Below are positions 9,403 to 19,725 of a stretch of DNA of 64,000 bases, piece after piece. The notes under the pieces are model-generated. The model was not told the origin of the DNA, did not search any database, and saw only the letters and a program-made list of their open reading frames with translations. The stretch comes from Arthrobacter sp. AQ5-05. Lineage in GTDB: Bacteria > Actinomycetota > Actinomycetes > Actinomycetales > Micrococcaceae. A program made the translations under genes and the position numbers. Each line of letters opens with the position of its first letter. Positions within the stretch are counted from its first letter, which is position 1. The stretch lies in NCBI RefSeq assembly GCF_003287975.1, contig NZ_QMKQ01000005.1, forward strand, positions 62,001 through 126,000, in the 5' to 3' direction.

Positions 9403-10074
9403 GTGGATCGATCTACTGAATCGGAAAGTTTTTCCGCTTCGACAAAGCGCCGGTCCCCTTCGAGGGGCTGGCGCTTTGTCGTTGGCGCGCTTGCAGCGGC
9501 GGCGCTGATCACCCTGGTTGTTCGGGCCACCGTCGTTGACTTTTTCTACATCGGTTCCACCTCCATGGAATCCACGTTGAACCCGGGTGATGGGCTGCTG
9601 GTGAACCGGCTTGCCTACAAGGACGCCGAGATCCAGCGGGGAGACGTGGTCATCTTTGACGGCCGCGGTTCTTTCCTGCCCTACGAGCGCCCCGGTGCCC
9701 TCGATTCCTTGGCCTGGGCGCTGCGCCTTGCCGGCAAGGATGCGGTGTACGTCAAGCGCGTCATTGGCGTCGGCGGCGACACCGTCAGCTGCTGCAGCCC
9801 CGATGGACGCCTGCTCGTCAACGGCGTCCCGCTGGACGAGCCCTACGTTCTTGACGGCAACAAGCCAAGCGACCTTGAATTCGACGTGAAGATCCCAGAG
9901 GGGCGCTTGTGGGTCATGGGGGACCACCGTTCGGTGTCCGAGGACTCGCGTGCGCTTCTTGGTGCACCGGGCGGCGGCATGATTGCCGTCGATCGAGTCA
10001 TCGGCAAGGTCACCGATGTGATCTGGCCGCTGGATCGCCGGCACCCCGTCGAGGGCCACCCGCCGGCCCCATAG
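9403..10074 (+). CDS. lepB: signal peptidase I, copy 1
   Basis: 223 residues. One membrane segment spans about residues 24-41, followed by an extracytoplasmic catalytic domain. The catalytic Ser is in GSTSMESTL (Ser54) and the general-base Lys is in VYVKRVIGVGGD (Lys118); GDHRSVSEDSR is the usual box E. The enzyme removes signal peptides from secreted proteins. The GTG start has GGAGATCCATC before it. A second copy lies 5 kb downstream, with a secreted protease and a lipoprotein between them. A terminator follows at once. Confidence 0.94.
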   Translation: MDRSTESESFSASTKRRSPSRGWRFVVGALAAAALITLVVRATVVDFFYIGSTSMESTLNPGDGLLVNRLAYKDAEIQRGDVVIFDGRGSFLPYERPGALDSLAWALRLAGKDAVYVKRVIGVGGDTVSCCSPDGRLLVNGVPLDEPYVLDGNKPSDLEFDVKIPEGRLWVMGDHRSVSEDSRALLGAPGGGMIAVDRVIGKVTDVIWPLDRRHPVEGHPPAP

Positions 10075-11072: not shown

Positions 11073-14066
11073 ATGCACGATTCATCACGTGCTCTACTAA
11101 AGCGGGGCAGCATCGCCGCCGCGACCACGGCGTTGGTGATCGGCAGCAGCTTCGCTGCGCCGGCGATCGCCACCACCACGGCAAGCCCCGTACCTGTATC
11201 CACGGAAACTTCGGCGGCCCCCACCACCGAGGCGTCGAGGGGCGACAGCAAGGCTGATCTTCCTGCCGGCTTGGAAGAAGCCGTAACGCGGGATCTCGGG
11301 AAGTCTCTTGAAGAGTTCAACGAGAACGGTAAGCTGAACGCGCTCGTTGAAACGCTCGCCAAGGAATTGAAGCAGTCCAAGCTTGACGCTGAATTTGTAA
11401 TAGCTGATGAGAAGATCAACGTTAGGGTTTCTGCATCAGCACTGGAAGCCGTCACCAAAAAGCTGGATGAGTTGACCCAGGGCATCGACGTTGAATTAAA
11501 AATTGCGGCTGAGCCTGAGATCGTGCCTTCCGCAGACTCTGACGGTGTGGAGATCAGCGAGTCTCCGGTTCCCAAGATTGTTGAGCCCGAGGCTAAAGAC
11601 TTAGATGCCGCTGAAAGCCCCAAGAACGTGGAAACCCTAAGGCCGTCGGCTCCGAGCCTCAAGGCCAAGGGAACTCCCAAGAGTGTAAACGCTTTGCTTG
11701 ACGAGTACGTCAAGAACGTTGAGCCAGACGCAGTTTCTGAACTCCAAGCAATCATGAAGACCAACAATGGCTTCGTCATTCGCACCGGTGGGGCAGCCCA
11801 GGTTGAGAAGCGTGGAACTGCGTTGCCAAATCCCGGTGATGCGTTGCCGGCCGAACCATCTGACGAGCTGAAGCTAACACCAGCCGAATTCGCTAGCCAA
11901 TACACGAAGGTTACTGTCGAGATCGCGGACGGTCCGGCGGAGCCAGCCGCGACCAACGATGTTCTTGGAGGCATGGGCTACGGTGCGGTAGTTGGCCAAG
12001 GTGTTGCTCTTTGTTCAATCGGGTTCTCAGGGTTTGACCCAGAGGGTGCACCGGCAGTTATTTCTGCAGGCCACTGTGAACAAGATGGCGACATCTCAAA
12101 AGTGAAGATCATTGAACACGACGGACCGAACAATCCAACGGCGTTGGGCGATGATCTGGGCACCTTCGGATTCTCGCAATTTGGCGGTCCGGGGAATTCT
12201 GCCGTCACTACAGATAAATATGACGGCAAGAACTTGGACACCCTTGGCAATGTTGGAACTGATATCTCCGTCATCGACGGCATCAACGAAAAGCTAAACC
12301 TCAAAGCTCTTGTCACGGACTGGAAAGGTGCCGACGAGCGCGATTCTGGGACCAAGGTCACTGGTGTTGCAAGTGCTGTCGTCGGAGCGGACATTTGCAA
12401 ATCCGGACGAACAACCGGGTGGACATGTGGAACGGTAGACGCAGCTGGAATAGTGTTCGTGGTTGGTGGATTTAACGGAACCAACGACATTCGTGGCGTT
12501 CGCGGTTTCAGCATAGCTAACCCGTATTCCATGATCGACGATCCGGATAACCCGGGTACCAAGATTCCGAAGTTTGAGAAGGCCGACCGTGGTGACTCAG
12601 GTGGGTCTGCCATCTCCGGCGGAACTGCGGTGGGCATTACCAGTGCTGTGTCGACAAGCGATAAGGGCTATGCCTACTTCACCGACATCAAGGACGGCCT
12701 GAAGCACACCAGGGGCTACTCCATCGCGTTGTTCCTGAACGCTCCGGCCGTTTCGACTCCGGCAAGAGGCTCGGATATCTCCGCGGGCCAGACTATCAAC
12801 GGAACCGTGGCCAGCGCTCCCGCCGGATCGACCGTGAAGATCAAGTCGGCCGGCCAGAAGGACATTTCCGCCAAGGTCGCCAACGGCAAGTTCAGCTTCA
12901 AGGCCCCGGCCAAGTTCGGCAAGTTCGGCAAGTTCGACTTCACCCTGCAGACGATTAACGGACACAACGAGTCCACGATCACCGCAGGATCGTTCAACGT
13001 CGTCATCGGCGCCCCGGCCATCACCACCCCGAAGAACGACGCCACGCTCAACGCACCGGTGTCCACCATCTCGGGCACCGGCGTTGTCGGAGCCACCGTG
13101 ACCCTCACCGGCGATGCCACCGGCACCGCCACGGTCGCGGCCGATGGCACCTGGAGCATCAAGCTCGCCGAGGCACTGCTCTACGGCGAACACTCGATCT
13201 CCGCCACCCAGGCGCGAGACGGCCAGACCTCGAAGGCAGCCACCAGCGCCTTCAAGATCCAGCTTGACGCCCCGGCCATCACCACCCCGGCCAACGGCAA
13301 GACCTACACCGAGGCACGGAAGGTGATTGCCGGTACCGGCGTCGCCGGCGCCGAGGTCAAACTGACCCTGCCCGATGCCGGGCAGGCCTCCGCGGCTGCC
13401 ACGCAGCTGGTCACCGTCGGCAACGACGGCAAGTGGAGCTTCACGCTGGAAGACGATGCTGCCCTGTCCTACGGGTCGCACAGCGTCACCGCCGTGCAGA
13501 GCGTCGGGGAGACCACCTCGGCCGCCGCCAAGTCCAACTTCAAGGTCGTCCCGGTCGCACCGTCGATCGCTTCGCCGACCGATGGCCAGAAGTTCGCCTT
13601 CAACAAGGCCCCGAAGACCGTCAGTGGCTTCGGCGTCAACGGTGCCACCATCAAGGTGACCATCGGCGACACCGAGCTCACCGCAACGGTTGCCGATGGC
13701 GCCTGGACCGTCCTGGTTCCGGCCGATCTCAAGCCCGGAAACCACAAGGTCACCGCCGTGCAGGTCATCGACGAGGTTGCCTCGGCATCCACGTCGATCT
13801 CCTTCACCCTGGCGGCCGAGCCGAAGCCGGAGCCTTCCGAGGCCCCGACCTCGTCGCCGAAACCCAGCCAGGATCCGGAGCCTTCCAAGGCGCCGGTAGC
13901 CCCGCAGGGCAACAGCAACGACGATGACAACGACAGCGACCCGTTGGCCAACACCGGCCCGAACGCCGCACTGCCGTTCATCGCCACCGGCGGCGTGCTG
14001 CTGGTCGCAGGCGGAGCATTCATGCTCTTCCGCCGCAAGAACACCAACGGGCACCACGGTGCCTAA
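11073..14066 (+). CDS. secreted, sortase-anchored S1 family serine protease with Ig-like repeats
   Basis: 997 residues. An N-terminal signal peptide (about 1-34, ending FAAPAIA) is followed by an acidic pro-region whose DLGKSLEEF helix resembles S1E protease propeptides. The chymotrypsin-fold domain has the catalytic triad His334 (ISAGHC), probable Asp397 (GTDISV) and Ser509 (RGDSGGS). Four Ig-like repeats begin near residues 557, 646, 731 and 827, three of them with an AP(A/S)I(T/A) opening; the fourth is followed by a Pro/Ser/Glu spacer. The C terminus is a sorting signal: LANTG at 958-962, a hydrophobic segment and RRK. LAxTG is the motif used by class E sortases. ATG 11073 has GGAG at 8 bases. 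The protease part uses visibly AT-richer codons than the repeats. Confidence 0.9.
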   Translation: MHDSSRALLKRGSIAAATTALVIGSSFAAPAIATTTASPVPVSTETSAAPTTEASRGDSKADLPAGLEEAVTRDLGKSLEEFNENGKLNALVETLAKELKQSKLDAEFVIADEKINVRVSASALEAVTKKLDELTQGIDVELKIAAEPEIVPSADSDGVEISESPVPKIVEPEAKDLDAAESPKNVETLRPSAPSLKAKGTPKSVNALLDEYVKNVEPDAVSELQAIMKTNNGFVIRTGGAAQVEKRGTALPNPGDALPAEPSDELKLTPAEFASQYTKVTVEIADGPAEPAATNDVLGGMGYGAVVGQGVALCSIGFSGFDPEGAPAVISAGHCEQDGDISKVKIIEHDGPNNPTALGDDLGTFGFSQFGGPGNSAVTTDKYDGKNLDTLGNVGTDISVIDGINEKLNLKALVTDWKGADERDSGTKVTGVASAVVGADICKSGRTTGWTCGTVDAAGIVFVVGGFNGTNDIRGVRGFSIANPYSMIDDPDNPGTKIPKFEKADRGDSGGSAISGGTAVGITSAVSTSDKGYAYFTDIKDGLKHTRGYSIALFLNAPAVSTPARGSDISAGQTINGTVASAPAGSTVKIKSAGQKDISAKVANGKFSFKAPAKFGKFGKFDFTLQTINGHNESTITAGSFNVVIGAPAITTPKNDATLNAPVSTISGTGVVGATVTLTGDATGTATVAADGTWSIKLAEALLYGEHSISATQARDGQTSKAATSAFKIQLDAPAITTPANGKTYTEARKVIAGTGVAGAEVKLTLPDAGQASAAATQLVTVGNDGKWSFTLEDDAALSYGSHSVTAVQSVGETTSAAAKSNFKVVPVAPSIASPTDGQKFAFNKAPKTVSGFGVNGATIKVTIGDTELTATVADGAWTVLVPADLKPGNHKVTAVQVIDEVASASTSISFTLAAEPKPEPSEAPTSSPKPSQDPEPSKAPVAPQGNSNDDDNDSDPLANTGPNAALPFIATGGVLLVAGGAFMLFRRKNTNGHHGA

Positions 14067-14100: not shown

Positions 14101-14155
14101 GAGGGGGGCCTTTCGTGGAATTGCTTGCAATTCCGGGGGAGGCCCCCTCCGCTTT
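14101..14155 (+). terminator. terminator after the surface protease
   Basis: GAGGGGGGCC...GGCCCCCTC encloses a second stem GGAATTGC/GCAATTCC and is followed by GCTTTT. Confidence 0.85.
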
Positions 14156-14228: not shown

Positions 14229-14789
14229 ATGAAGAACCCCACGACACGCGTTGCCCTGTGCGGGGCCGCCTTGGCGGCGGCGCTGCTGCTTTCGGCTTGC
14301 GGTTCCGATGCCGGCACACCGGCCTCGTCCGATCCCACAGCCCCGACATCCGTCAGCACCGCGCCCGAGCAGAGCCAGGACCCCCAATTGCTCCAACTCA
14401 ATGAAACCCTCAAGGACACCCTGGGGGACAAGTACTCCGAGGCGTGGATCGCCGACAACAAGCTGCACGTCGCGGTCACCGACAAGGCCGCCGAGGCCAC
14501 CGTCACCGAGGCCGGCGCGGTGGCGCACCTGGCCAAGTACTCCGCGGCCGAACTCGATGCCGCCATCGGCAAGATCATGGCCTGGCAGCGCGAGCAGGGC
14601 GGAGCCGTCGCCACCGCCATCCACCGCTACGTCCCCTCCGGGCGCGACGGTTCGATCACTCTGGCCGTGGACCCGGCCCAGCTCGAAACCATCAAGAAGG
14701 GCCTGGCCGCCGCCGATGTCGCCGGCGGCATCTCGCTGGTCTTCCAGGAGTCGGCCGGACCGGCATCCCCGGCGGCGAGCACCAGCTAG
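14229..14789 (+). CDS. lipoprotein resembling a free alpha-lytic-type protease pro-domain
   Basis: 186 residues. The lipobox LLSAC (Cys24) marks a lipid-anchored extracytoplasmic protein. The mature part reads like the pro-domain of S1E proteases such as alpha-lytic protease: LGDKYSEAWIADNKLHVAVT, then a second half with YSAAELDAAIGKI and ITLAVDP. No protease domain follows. In the known family the pro-domain is a foldase and tight inhibitor of its own protease; here it is a separate gene directly after an S1 protease gene. A trans-acting chaperone or inhibitor role is inference. ATG 14229 has GAAGGTGG upstream. Family assignment is from motif resemblance, not a search. Confidence 0.72.
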   Translation: MKNPTTRVALCGAALAAALLLSACGSDAGTPASSDPTAPTSVSTAPEQSQDPQLLQLNETLKDTLGDKYSEAWIADNKLHVAVTDKAAEATVTEAGAVAHLAKYSAAELDAAIGKIMAWQREQGGAVATAIHRYVPSGRDGSITLAVDPAQLETIKKGLAAADVAGGISLVFQESAGPASPAASTS

Positions 14790-14842: not shown

Positions 14843-14975
14843 GGCTCCCACTTGCCCTGCGACGTAGGGTGGTAGCTGAGGGAACGTGATTCGTTCCCGC
14901 TTCCCTCCAGGGGTGGGCGGGCGCGGGTACGGCCCGCATTGCCAGAGACAAGAACTTGAAAGGGCCTGCACCCAC

Positions 14976-15692
14976 GTGAGCCACGCCAGCGACCCAGCCG
15001 CAACACCGGAGCAACCGGGCAAGAAGAGAAATCCCGTATGGGCAGCGGTCCGCGAGGTCCTGATCATCGTCGTGGTCGCCCTGGTGATCTCGCTGGTCGT
15101 CAAGACGTTCTTCTTCCGCGCCTTCTACATCCCCTCGGGTTCGATGGAAGAAACGCTGCAGGTCAACGACCGCATCTTCGCCAACCTCATGGCACCGGGT
15201 CCCTTTGAACTCAACCGCGGGGACGTGGTGGTCTTCCGCGACGAGGAGGGCTGGCTGCCCCCGATCCCGGCCACGGCCACCAACCCGGTGACCGAATTCT
15301 TCACCTTCGTCGGACTGGTCCCGGACCCGTCCAACCAGCACCTGATCAAGCGGATCATCGGCATGCCGGGGGACACCGTGAGCTGCTGCTCCGCCGACGG
15401 GAAACTGGCCGTCAACGGCACGGCAATCACCGAGCCCTACATCTTCCCGGGGGACAACCCCTCGGACTCCGAGTTCACCAAGACCGTGCCCGAGGGCAAG
15501 ATCTGGGTCATGGGGGACCACCGCGCGGCTTCCGCGGACTCCCGCTACCACGAGGACCTGCAGGGCGGCTTCGTGGACATCTCCTCCGTCGAGGGTCGCG
15601 CCGCGGTGATCTCCTGGCCGCTGGACCGCATCGGCGGAATCTCCGGGCACCACGAGGTCTTCGCCAGCGTCCCGGCCCCGGACAGCAAATGA
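14976..15692 (+). CDS. lepB: signal peptidase I, copy 2
   Basis: 238 residues with one membrane segment at about 27-43. Catalytic Ser56 is in IPSGSMEETL and Lys125 in HLIKRIIGMPGD; box E is MGDHRAASADSR. The SGSMEETL site is the more usual form, so this copy is probably the housekeeping enzyme. GTG 14976 was chosen because the cytosolic N terminus begins there and AAAGGG lies upstream. Its stop overlaps the start of rnhB (ATGA at 15689). Confidence 0.95.
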   Translation: MSHASDPAATPEQPGKKRNPVWAAVREVLIIVVVALVISLVVKTFFFRAFYIPSGSMEETLQVNDRIFANLMAPGPFELNRGDVVVFRDEEGWLPPIPATATNPVTEFFTFVGLVPDPSNQHLIKRIIGMPGDTVSCCSADGKLAVNGTAITEPYIFPGDNPSDSEFTKTVPEGKIWVMGDHRAASADSRYHEDLQGGFVDISSVEGRAAVISWPLDRIGGISGHHEVFASVPAPDSK

Positions 15693-17810: not shown

Positions 17811-18069
17811 GGGTCCGCGGTGCGGCATCCCGCCGGTGCGCCGTGCATTTTCGGTGTTCCGCACAGTTGATTACAGAACTTCATAGCTGCTTTTCGCCGT
17901 GCTGGCCACTATCAATGTGTCACCAAAATTAGTACATTGAACCGTAATTATCATGATCAATAGCGAATCGTCCATTCGTCGCACGTATGGTTGATCAAAT
18001 GCCTGCGTTCCGGCCGCCGCCGCGTCCGTGCGCGGCATCGAGCCGAACCAGGACTCATGGGGGATCCGA
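17811..18069 (+). other. AT-rich intergenic region before the SH3b-GGCT gene
   Basis: The middle of this 259-base gap (about 17865-17985) is markedly AT-rich, with runs such as ACCAAAATTAGTACATTGAA. It probably holds the promoter for the secreted protein gene; I cannot place -35 and -10 boxes with confidence. Confidence 0.35.
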
Positions 18070-19725
18070 ATGCAGAAGAAGAGAATCGCAACAGTACTGG
18101 CACTGGCCATTGCCGTAACCGGCAGCAGCACGGGCTTTGTGTCCCCGGCTGCCAACCACGTACTGGCTCCGGCAGCCACAATGTCCTGGTCAACGCCGAC
18201 ACAGCTGGAACCGACCAGCAGTGCGCCACTGGGCATTGCCGCGAAAAAGGTGAACCTGAAGAAGGCCACCACCAACAACCTGAACCTGCGCAAGTCACGC
18301 AGCGCCAAGGCCAAGGTCCTGCTGACGATCCCGAAGCATGCCGCGCTGGCCGTCACCGAGACGATCGGCACCTGGAGCAAGACCAAGTACAAGGGCAAGA
18401 CCGGTTGGGTCGCCTCCCGGTACCTGAAGAATGCTCCGGCGGCGAAGAAGCCGGCACCCCCGAAGGCCGGACCCCAGACGAAGGCCAAGCCCTCGGCCCA
18501 GAAGATCACCAAGAACAACCTCAACCTGCGCCAGGGCAAAAGCACCAAGACCAAGGCGTTGGTGACGATCCCAAAGAACACCACCATCACCGTCACCGCA
18601 ACCAACGGCACCTGGAGCCAGACGAAGTACAAGGGCAAGACCGGCTGGGTGGCCTCCGCGTACCTGAAGAACGCCCCCGCCGCCAAGAAGCCGGCACCCA
18701 AGCCACAGGCCGCCACGCACCGATACACCACCGGGTTCACCACGCTGCGCAAGGGCGCATCCAAGGACAGCGATTCGCTGGGGGCCTACCAACGTCGGGC
18801 CAAGGTCGAACATGTCTCCGTCACCGGGTCCTGGACCAAGGTCAAGGTGTCGGGAAAGACCGGCTACATCGAGTCCGCCCACCTGTCCCGGACCAACCCG
18901 GCCATCGTGAACCGCTGGCTGAAATCCACGCAGGCCGTGTACGCGGGCACCAACAACAAGTCGGCCAAGGTCACCACGGTGAAGCAGCACGCGAAGGTCG
19001 AGTGGCTGCGCACCATTGGCGACTGGACAGGGATCCGGACAGGCAGCGGCAACGGCTGGGTGCCGACCTCGTCGCTGTCCAACAGCACCATCGGCCCCAC
19101 CACCGCCAAGCCCCCGACACCCCGGGCCACCTACCGCTGGACCACGGCACCGGTCAACATCCGCAAGGGGTCGGGCACCTCGCACAGGAGCCTGGGCCTG
19201 GTCCCGGCCAACGAGCGCGTCACCTACCTCAAGACCGCCAACGGCTGGTCGAACGTGGTCTCCTCCAAGGGCATCGGCTGGATCTCCAACAAGTTCCTGG
19301 ACAAGGAAGGCCAGCACTCCTTCGCCGTCTACGGGACCCTGCGCAAGGGGCAATCGGCGTACTACATCCTCAAGGGCAAGACCTCGAAGGAAACCAAGAC
19401 CACGATCGCCTCCCACCGCATGTACCTGCAACCGAACAAGAGCTGGCTCTCCTACGTCATCCCCAGCAAGAGCGCCGCCGACAAGGTGGTTGTCGAGCGG
19501 ATGGAAATCAAGCCGGCCAATTACCGGTCGACGGTGGTGAACATGGACAAGTGGGAGCGCTTTGACCCCAGCAAGCCGCTGGCCGACCAGAACTACAACC
19601 GCGTGCTGGTCACCGACAGGGACGGCCACAGGTCCTGGGCCTACCTGGGATCGAAAAAGATCGGCAGCTACCTGACCAAAAACGGAATCCGTGTGACTTC
19701 CGGCGACTACCTGAAGAGGTTCTGA
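18070..19725 (+). CDS. secreted protein with SH3b repeats and a C-terminal GGCT-like domain
   Basis: 551 residues. A signal peptide covers about residues 1-30. Four to five bacterial SH3-like repeats follow; the first two are nearly identical and share NNLNLR, KYKGKTGWVAS and YLKNAPAAKKPA, then diverged copies (TTLRKGAS, VNIRKGSGTSHRS). From residue 418, FAVYGTLRKG opens a gamma-glutamylcyclotransferase-like (AIG2/GGCT) domain that runs to the end. SH3b repeats usually bind cell-wall peptides; GGCT domains usually act on gamma-glutamyl amines inside cells. An export form with a wall-binding part is unusual. ATG 18070 has TGGGGGA just upstream. The next gene starts 2 bases after the stop. Confidence 0.85.
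   Translation: MQKKRIATVLALAIAVTGSSTGFVSPAANHVLAPAATMSWSTPTQLEPTSSAPLGIAAKKVNLKKATTNNLNLRKSRSAKAKVLLTIPKHAALAVTETIGTWSKTKYKGKTGWVASRYLKNAPAAKKPAPPKAGPQTKAKPSAQKITKNNLNLRQGKSTKTKALVTIPKNTTITVTATNGTWSQTKYKGKTGWVASAYLKNAPAAKKPAPKPQAATHRYTTGFTTLRKGASKDSDSLGAYQRRAKVEHVSVTGSWTKVKVSGKTGYIESAHLSRTNPAIVNRWLKSTQAVYAGTNNKSAKVTTVKQHAKVEWLRTIGDWTGIRTGSGNGWVPTSSLSNSTIGPTTAKPPTPRATYRWTTAPVNIRKGSGTSHRSLGLVPANERVTYLKTANGWSNVVSSKGIGWISNKFLDKEGQHSFAVYGTLRKGQSAYYILKGKTSKETKTTIASHRMYLQPNKSWLSYVIPSKSAADKVVVERMEIKPANYRSTVVNMDKWERFDPSKPLADQNYNRVLVTDRDGHRSWAYLGSKKIGSYLTKNGIRVTSGDYLKRF

Follow-up and report, generated by a model that had tools for sequence, protein, structure and literature searches.

A stand-alone, lipobox-bearing S1E-type pro-domain encoded beside a wall-anchored S1 protease, a candidate trans-acting partner of its neighbour

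S1E pro-domains are single-use folding catalysts built into their proteases. In the stretch of DNA analysed here (64,000 nucleotides in full, called the window), a sequence-only reading had picked out a lipoprotein that resembles the pro-domain of alpha-lytic-type proteases, has its own lipobox and no protease, and directly follows a wall-anchored S1 protease; a membrane-held foldase or guard acting in trans was suggested. The locus raises the question of whether a pro-domain of this class exists as a protein of its own and, if so, what it does to the protease next door. The two genes and their parts are the following.

11073-14066, + strand: S1 protease gene, wall-anchored, 997 aa (domain and motif matches)
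11172-11957, + strand: pro region of the protease itself, diverged, with an insert modelled at low confidence (hhalign, element order of the model)
11958-12731, + strand: S1 catalytic domain (conserved triad columns; Foldseek)
12777-13812, + strand: Ig-like repeats, limits approximate (Big_13, Big_6 and Ca_tandemer matches)
13944-14063, + strand: LANTG sorting signal, hydrophobic stretch and basic tail (NF058582 LAVTG-type domain above cut-off)
14104-14147, + strand: terminator-like hairpin between the genes (long hairpin, T-rich tail)
14229-14789, + strand: lipoprotein gene, 186 aa with an ATG start, predicted stand-alone alpha-lytic-type (S1E) pro-domain
14229-14297, + strand: lipoprotein signal peptide, residues 1-23, LSA followed by Cys24 (sequence, genus alignment)
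14298-14300, + strand: Cys24, lipid-modified by motif prediction, invariant in 11 members of the genus (g1)
14301-14381, + strand: linker, residues 25-51, flexible, of low model confidence (pLDDT <50 at mature residues 1-26)
14382-14750, + strand: folded pro-domain, residues 52-174 (pLDDT; Foldseek to 4pro, 3pro and 2pro)
14751-14786, + strand: C-terminal tail SAGPASPAASTS of the lipoprotein, resembling the last residues of the pro region inside the protease

We searched 295 genomes of the window's family and found a strong match to the lipoprotein (E <= 5e-15) in 63 of them, in 6 of 32 genera: 11 genomes belong to the window's genus, g1, and 52 to g21, g23, g24, g25 and g32. Weaker matches (E 4e-8 and above) occurred in 62 other genomes at E<=0.01; six of these loci were fetched (L102-L107), and the lipoprotein HMM found no member in them. 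L102 and L103 encode lipoproteins of about 610 aa that we take, from their motifs, to resemble glycoside hydrolases. A tblastn search of plasmids gave no match.

The lipobox of the window's lipoprotein is L-S-A-C with Cys24, followed by a short linker rich in Ser, Thr and Pro and a domain of about 125 residues, whose folded part has the element order H-E-E-H-E-H-E-E-H-E. The reading frame stops after the pro-domain; there is no catalytic domain, nor is the domain N-terminally fused to an S1 protease, so the description of a lipobox without a protease was borne out. A lipobox was predicted by motif in 61 of the 63 family members, the tally resting on a pattern in 58 of 62 loci and on inspection by eye for L099, L100 and the window rather than on a dedicated predictor. 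Among the 63 members inspected, a recognisable lipobox was absent from L090 and L097; the former could be a soluble version and the latter looks truncated or frameshifted. The 58-row family alignment is no test of the conservation of the cysteine because its rows were trimmed to start there. Comparing the window with its g1 relatives gave dN/dS values of 0.12-0.30 for the lipoprotein gene (8 comparisons, with dS near saturation in one), which means that it is under purifying selection.

Used as a single sequence, the window lipoprotein retrieved no Pfam family at E<=10 and no sensible match in the PDB. An NCBIfam scan gave nothing useful, its matches lying far below their cut-offs; one of them, NF053527 (WKL family lipoprotein), was set aside, as it is far under its cut-off and its best stretch covers residues 10-65 only. 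With a profile of 58 family members, the PDB search returned the alpha-lytic PRO chain (2pro with 3pro and 4pro) at E 6.2e-6 in one stretch, profile positions 31-156 of 165 aligning to residues 29-160 of 166 in 2pro. A 14-row subset profile found 2pro at E 0.0012, ranked under armadillo repeats. Profile-profile comparison by hhalign against 11 S1E pro regions, picked by the PF02983 model independently of the lipoprotein, gave a probability of 98.2 (P 4e-14). None of 11 controls exceeded a probability of 0.5; eight of them were profiles of other protein families at these loci, and three were reversed profiles. A plain HMM of these 11 pro regions gave more than 21 bits to every one of the 63 lipoproteins and 48.9 bits to that of the window. 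The hhalign probability with 22 fused relatives was 99.0, a biased value because these relatives were found using the lipoprotein profile. The AlphaFold2 model of the mature lipoprotein had a mean pLDDT of 84, with block means of 94-98 across most of the domain, and Foldseek matched it to seven PDB chains at E<=1e-3, all of them alpha-lytic PRO (TM 0.49-0.66). Hence, by profile, profile-profile comparison and predicted fold, the mature lipoprotein is an S1E-type pro-domain, as the sequence-only reading had suspected and as structure prediction, one of the checks it proposed, agreed. The profile search that it also proposed, against PF02983, succeeded with family profiles and failed as a plain Pfam match: by family profile and by predicted fold the lipoprotein falls within the S1E pro-domain family, and by the Pfam cut-off outside it, PF02983 matching 1 of 58 members at E 0.013.

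Scanned one by one, the 58 members matched 34 Pfam families at E<=1 in some member. Secretin_N (8 of 58 members, best E 0.0086) and 2_5_RNA_ligase2 (5 of 58, best E 0.00027) were judged to be noise of such single-sequence scans, a weak test in which each family appears in few members, and we relied on the profiles and the fold. Designed armadillo repeats scored above 2pro in both the 58-row and the 14-row PDB profile searches. An armadillo identity was rejected, since, in the alignments displayed, these scores are sums of repeats of about 3-8 bits each, while 2pro passes on one stretch; in the 58-row search no stretch of an armadillo chain passes alone save one 84-residue fragment (E 0.037).

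We then looked for the domain beyond the family. A search of the order (396 genomes) yielded 24 matches in addition to five known lipoproteins, and 23 of the 24 have S1 motifs downstream in frame; all 24 loci were fetched, L174 overlapping L157. In the class search (394 genomes), all 29 fetched loci, taken from well over 100 listed matches, carry the domain fused to an S1 protease. Outside the lipoproteins, the domain is therefore fused to an S1 protease in 52 of the 53 order and class loci checked and, of the open frames among the matches listed for class and phylum, the window's own was the only one below 349 residues. In these searches the free form of the pro-domain was thus seen only in the window's own family. 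The one order locus without S1 motifs in frame, L170, from g31 of that same family, has a 108-aa frame with a partial profile match that is unfused in that frame.

The proposed linkage of the two genes in relatives was confirmed. An S1 protease gene lies directly upstream on the same strand in 59 of the 62 fetched loci, or 60 of 63 with the window, and the remaining three loci (L043, L069 and L073) are interrupted by contig ends; two of these three cut genomes have their own protease at another contig end (L133 and L134). The gap from protease to lipoprotein spans 14-216 bp in the fetched loci, with start codons as chosen by the analyst. The surroundings of the pair vary: it sits between lepB genes in g1 and g23, and at other loci in g21, g24, g25 and g32. 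Counted from the side of the protease, 88 of the 295 family genomes have it: 60 paired, 2 split by contig ends, 25 solo with no adjoining lipoprotein, plus L135. The solo proteases come from g10 (16), g1 (3), g24 (2), g32 (2), g9 (1) and g21 (1). In the two g24 cases, L131 and L132, decayed remnants of the lipoprotein, with a recognisable C-terminal piece, lie downstream of proteases that keep their full triad motifs and anchor. On the catalytic-domain tree, a quick tree with long-branch warnings, genomes switch between paired and solo a minimum of five or six times. Pairing in 60 of 63 cases set against 25 solo proteases thus suggests that the lipoprotein depends on the protease and not the protease on the lipoprotein. 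Mirror-tree distances of the lipoprotein, the catalytic domain and the protease's own pro region correlate at 0.82-0.85 (58 of 60 pairs, L090 and L097 omitted), which we do not count as evidence because shared ancestry explains it. Downstream of the window's lipoprotein are a signal peptidase I gene and then rnhB, both named from our reading of the sequence. Two signal peptidase I-like genes (window positions 9403-10074 and 14886-15692) flank the pair, as they do in many g23 loci.

The end of the protease gene and the start of the lipoprotein gene are 162 bp apart, and the entire 162-nt gap has a folding z of -3.2. A hairpin of at least 12 pairs with a T-rich tail is present in 43 of the 60 gaps, which are related sequences; the average over 10 Markov resamples was 0.9. 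A terminator scan of the window did not list the hairpin at 14104-14147. Given a hairpin of this kind between the genes, the protease and the lipoprotein are probably not a simple operon. The statement that the lipoprotein directly follows the protease therefore stands for position and not for transcription.

The protease opens with a signal peptide. An alignment of 60 proteases shows the H, D and S of the catalytic triad conserved in every one, and the best Foldseek matches of its catalytic domain are NAPase, L5 protease and alpha-lytic protease. By motif, a wall anchor is present in all 60 paired proteases and in 22 of the 25 solo ones. The latter count does not support the idea that a wall-anchored protease always requires the lipoprotein. 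In g1, three solo genomes of one clade (L108, L109 and L110) lack the anchor and 10 paired genomes have it, which looks like a single joint loss or gain of anchor and lipoprotein in this genus; the association is weak, because it amounts to one clade and one event on the tree and because 22 of 25 solo proteases are anchored. In these three genomes the protease has no sorting signal, and about 160-250 bp separate it from the next signal peptidase frame, with no lipoprotein gene.

The neighbour protease does not lack a pro region: by hhalign and the element order of the model it has a diverged one of its own. The protease's own region matched PF02983-type pro regions with a probability of 85.5 in its N-terminal part and a biased set of fused relatives with 95.6. 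Against the lipoprotein, the N-terminal ~260 residues gave 71.6 in an alignment reaching the last residues before the catalytic domain. Its model shows, by eye, a similar order of helices and strands with one extra helix and a disordered insert. The plain S1E profile (11 PF02983-found sequences) scored none of the 60 paired and none of the 25 solo own pro regions above 10 bits, and Foldseek of the protease model gave no PRO chain among the 50 listed matches. We conclude that the own pro region is strongly diverged; that it folds the enzyme alone is an assumption, because the plain S1E profile and Foldseek miss it. The N-terminal regions of all 25 solo proteases match the profile of the paired own pro regions. 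The sequence-only reading had missed both the own pro region and these 25 related proteases without an adjoining lipoprotein.

Of the two domains in a pair, the lipoprotein is much the closer to canonical S1E pro regions. With the canonical 11-sequence profile the medians were 35.3 bits for the lipoprotein and -3.6 bits for the paired own pro region, and with the fused-relative profile 55.9 and 11.75 bits; the latter profile is biased because its sequences had themselves been retrieved with the lipoprotein profile, and the unbiased 11-sequence repeat agrees with it. The own regions of solo proteases are no closer to the canonical form (medians of 4.0 bits with the fused-relative and -5.0 bits with the 11-sequence profile). 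We rejected the lipoprotein as a recent copy of its neighbour's own pro region, given how much nearer it stands to canonical S1E pro regions.

The two proteins also resemble each other at one short site. Contacts of the tail reportedly matter for the folding of alpha-lytic protease, going by the titles of Peters 1998 and of PDB entry 1boq. The window lipoprotein ends in ESAGPASPAASTS and the protease's own pro region in EIADGPAEPAATN (ADGPAEPAATN), followed by DVLGGMGY. In the g21 pair L091 the corresponding ends are PTGGPAEAY in the lipoprotein and VSGPAEPFGEN in the own pro region. Among the 63 lipoproteins, 53 carry a motif of [ST], an optional residue and G-[LPIMV]-[AGTL]-[TSARKE] within their final 20 residues, compared with 2.7 after shuffling; among the 60 own pro regions, 40 carry G-[PTV]-[AVG] within their final 16, compared with 10.0 after shuffling. 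These counts speak of conservation and not of function, because the patterns were devised after viewing the tails and the rows are related. In alpha-lytic protease the processing junction lies across the active site (PMC2829044). By analogy, we infer that the lipoprotein tail may bind the active site as this junction does.

What, then, would the lipoprotein do? As both genes stay together across several genera, it probably acts on its neighbour from outside, and we are highly confident that it is a trans-acting partner of some kind. That this partner is a membrane-tethered inhibitor, a guard of the neighbouring protease, is a more specific claim, to which we give about an even chance. The lipid would hold the free-standing S1E-type pro-domain at the outer face of the membrane, and the protease would fold using its own pro region. 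With the folded protease still close to the membrane, the lipoprotein would bind the C-terminal half of the enzyme, with its tail in the active-site cleft, in the manner of the alpha-lytic pro region. Tethered and reusable, it could silence the protease there, before the enzyme is anchored in the wall or while this happens. Once sortase had fixed the protease farther out in the wall, the enzyme would escape the tether and cleave outside substrates. Sequences and models show what the domain is, the fold predicted for it, its lipobox, how closely the two genes are paired, and that the protease contains an additional pro region, itself diverged. That every paired protease carries a wall anchor by motif, and that the one g1 clade without the lipoprotein has none, points weakly to a guard. 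The likeness of the tail to the protease's own junction, a short resemblance, would also count for a guard, and a terminator between the genes fits its independent expression. Against a guard, the two genes look transcriptionally separate, whereas SpeB-Spi and two Bacteroides pairs are co-transcribed (PMC2873492). Because wall-anchored proteases exist without the lipoprotein (the 22 of 25 solo cases), a guard would not always be needed.

We favour a guard over an obligatory foldase in view of the solo relatives and of the pro region within the protease itself; the 25 of 88 protease genomes without an adjoining lipoprotein speak against an obligatory foldase. The strongest rival is nevertheless a natural trans-acting foldase, a membrane-held pro-domain that catalyses the last folding step of its neighbour at the exit of the Sec channel, much as a lipase-specific foldase does; the diverged pro region of the protease would then have partly or wholly given up its folding ability. 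We consider it rather doubtful. Its best argument is how strongly the own pro region has diverged, the lipoprotein standing much nearer the canonical S1E form; the location at the membrane and the pairing of the genes suit it as well, and so does the retained C-terminal tail, if tail contacts matter in alpha-lytic folding as the titles say. However, the 25 solo proteases all match the own-pro profile with no lipoprotein beside them, and their own regions are no nearer the canonical form. Moreover, the 2pro match starts at residue 29 of that chain, and the lipoprotein therefore seems to be without the N-terminal part. Trans-acting alpha-lytic pro regions are known from laboratory constructs. 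A two-gene S1E foldase, in which the catalyst has moved to the lipoprotein and can serve many protease molecules one after another while the own pro region is a partial helper, is a tentative possibility that we place below an even chance; if it were true, the trans-acting design of those constructs would be one used by nature.

The alpha-lytic pro region also inhibits its protease in cis. Its role in folding is likewise exerted in cis (PMC2829044). The lipoprotein could do both, first folding the protease and then staying bound as its inhibitor, and the same structural evidence would apply to it. The objections to a foldase (the 25 solo proteases and the match from 2pro residue 29) hold here too, and we judge such a double role improbable. 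It is more improbable still that the domain has drifted to another job, for instance as a sensor, or as an inhibitor of proteases from outside or of other proteases of the cell itself, the adjacency being historical. The protease can exist without the lipoprotein, and kinship of fold alone is no proof of function; but none of the 63 lipoprotein genomes has been shown to lack an adjoining protease, the pair stays joined across differing genomic surroundings, and in two genomes the lipoprotein has decayed behind the protease rather than moved. Hardly credible, finally, is a resemblance by chance, with no S1E-type pro-domain at all: the empty single-sequence Pfam and PDB searches, the Pfam families that match members as often as or better than PF02983 and the armadillo repeats ranked over 2pro would speak for it, but those Pfam families, Secretin_N and 2_5_RNA_ligase2, appear in few members of a weak one-by-one scan, the armadillo scores are repeat sums (at most about 8 bits each) against a single stretch of 2pro, and hhalign, HMM and Foldseek concur with negative controls.

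By descent, to judge from the sequences, the lipoprotein belongs with the S1E pro-domains (PF02983; 2pro, 3pro and 4pro), without their defining fusion. It is like them in its predicted fold, in profile homology over nearly the whole domain and in having a C-terminal tail where the processing junction sits. It is unlike them in being encoded by a separate gene, with a predicted lipid anchor and no catalytic domain, and unlike the alpha-lytic pro region in that the match begins at residue 29 and the single sequence falls below the Pfam model. In its way of working it may be compared with Spi, SUB1-ProM or a membrane-held steric chaperone, and it shares descent with none of these. The fold of Spi is unrelated to that of the S1E pro-domain and the fold of Lif/LipH differs from it; we know of no lipid anchor on SUB1-ProM. 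With Spi and SUB1-ProM the lipoprotein shares propeptide homology to the target class without a catalytic domain, and a gene beside such a protease. A Lif-type client has no pro-domain of its own and depends on its partner; in the present case the protease contains a diverged pro region of its own, and 25 relatives are solo.

Spi of Streptococcus pyogenes is a stand-alone analogue of the SpeB propeptide and an inhibitor, with its gene beside that of the protease (PMC2873492); in this it is like the lipoprotein, and it differs in its target, a cysteine protease of family C10, and in being co-transcribed with it. SUB1-ProM of Plasmodium is a stand-alone, propeptide-like, potent and selective inhibitor encoded beside protease genes (PMC6993865); unlike the lipoprotein, it is a subtilisin-type propeptide in a eukaryote. 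The Bfi inhibitors of the C10 proteases of Bacteroides fragilis, two of three of which are predicted lipoproteins, are protease-adjacent and proposed to protect the cell, and they differ in being Staphostatin-like rather than propeptide-like, with a C10 protease as target (PMC2873492). Lif/LipH is a membrane-held folding partner grouped as a steric chaperone with the alpha-lytic and subtilisin propeptides (PMC3352829); it works in the Gram-negative periplasm on a dependent lipase, whereas the protease here has its own pro region.

Our search of the open-licence literature, with subscription literature outside its scope, found no report of a free alpha-lytic-type pro-domain. To our knowledge, no natural S1E pro-domain acting in trans has been described earlier. 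Stand-alone, propeptide-like protease regulators are already known, and the S1E case appears to be new. If the lipoprotein does act on its neighbour, it would be the first natural S1E case in trans, lipid-anchored and kept beside an S1 protease in six genera. It would offer a natural system in which genetics could separate folding catalysis from inhibition by one fold, and it suggests how a Gram-positive cell may protect its membrane proteins from a protease anchored in its own wall.

Farther along the window, positions 18028-19725 encode a secreted-looking protein with several SH3-like repeats, whose frame length differs among relatives. Its C-terminal stretch reads like a gamma-glutamylcyclotransferase, which we presume from a YGTLR motif.
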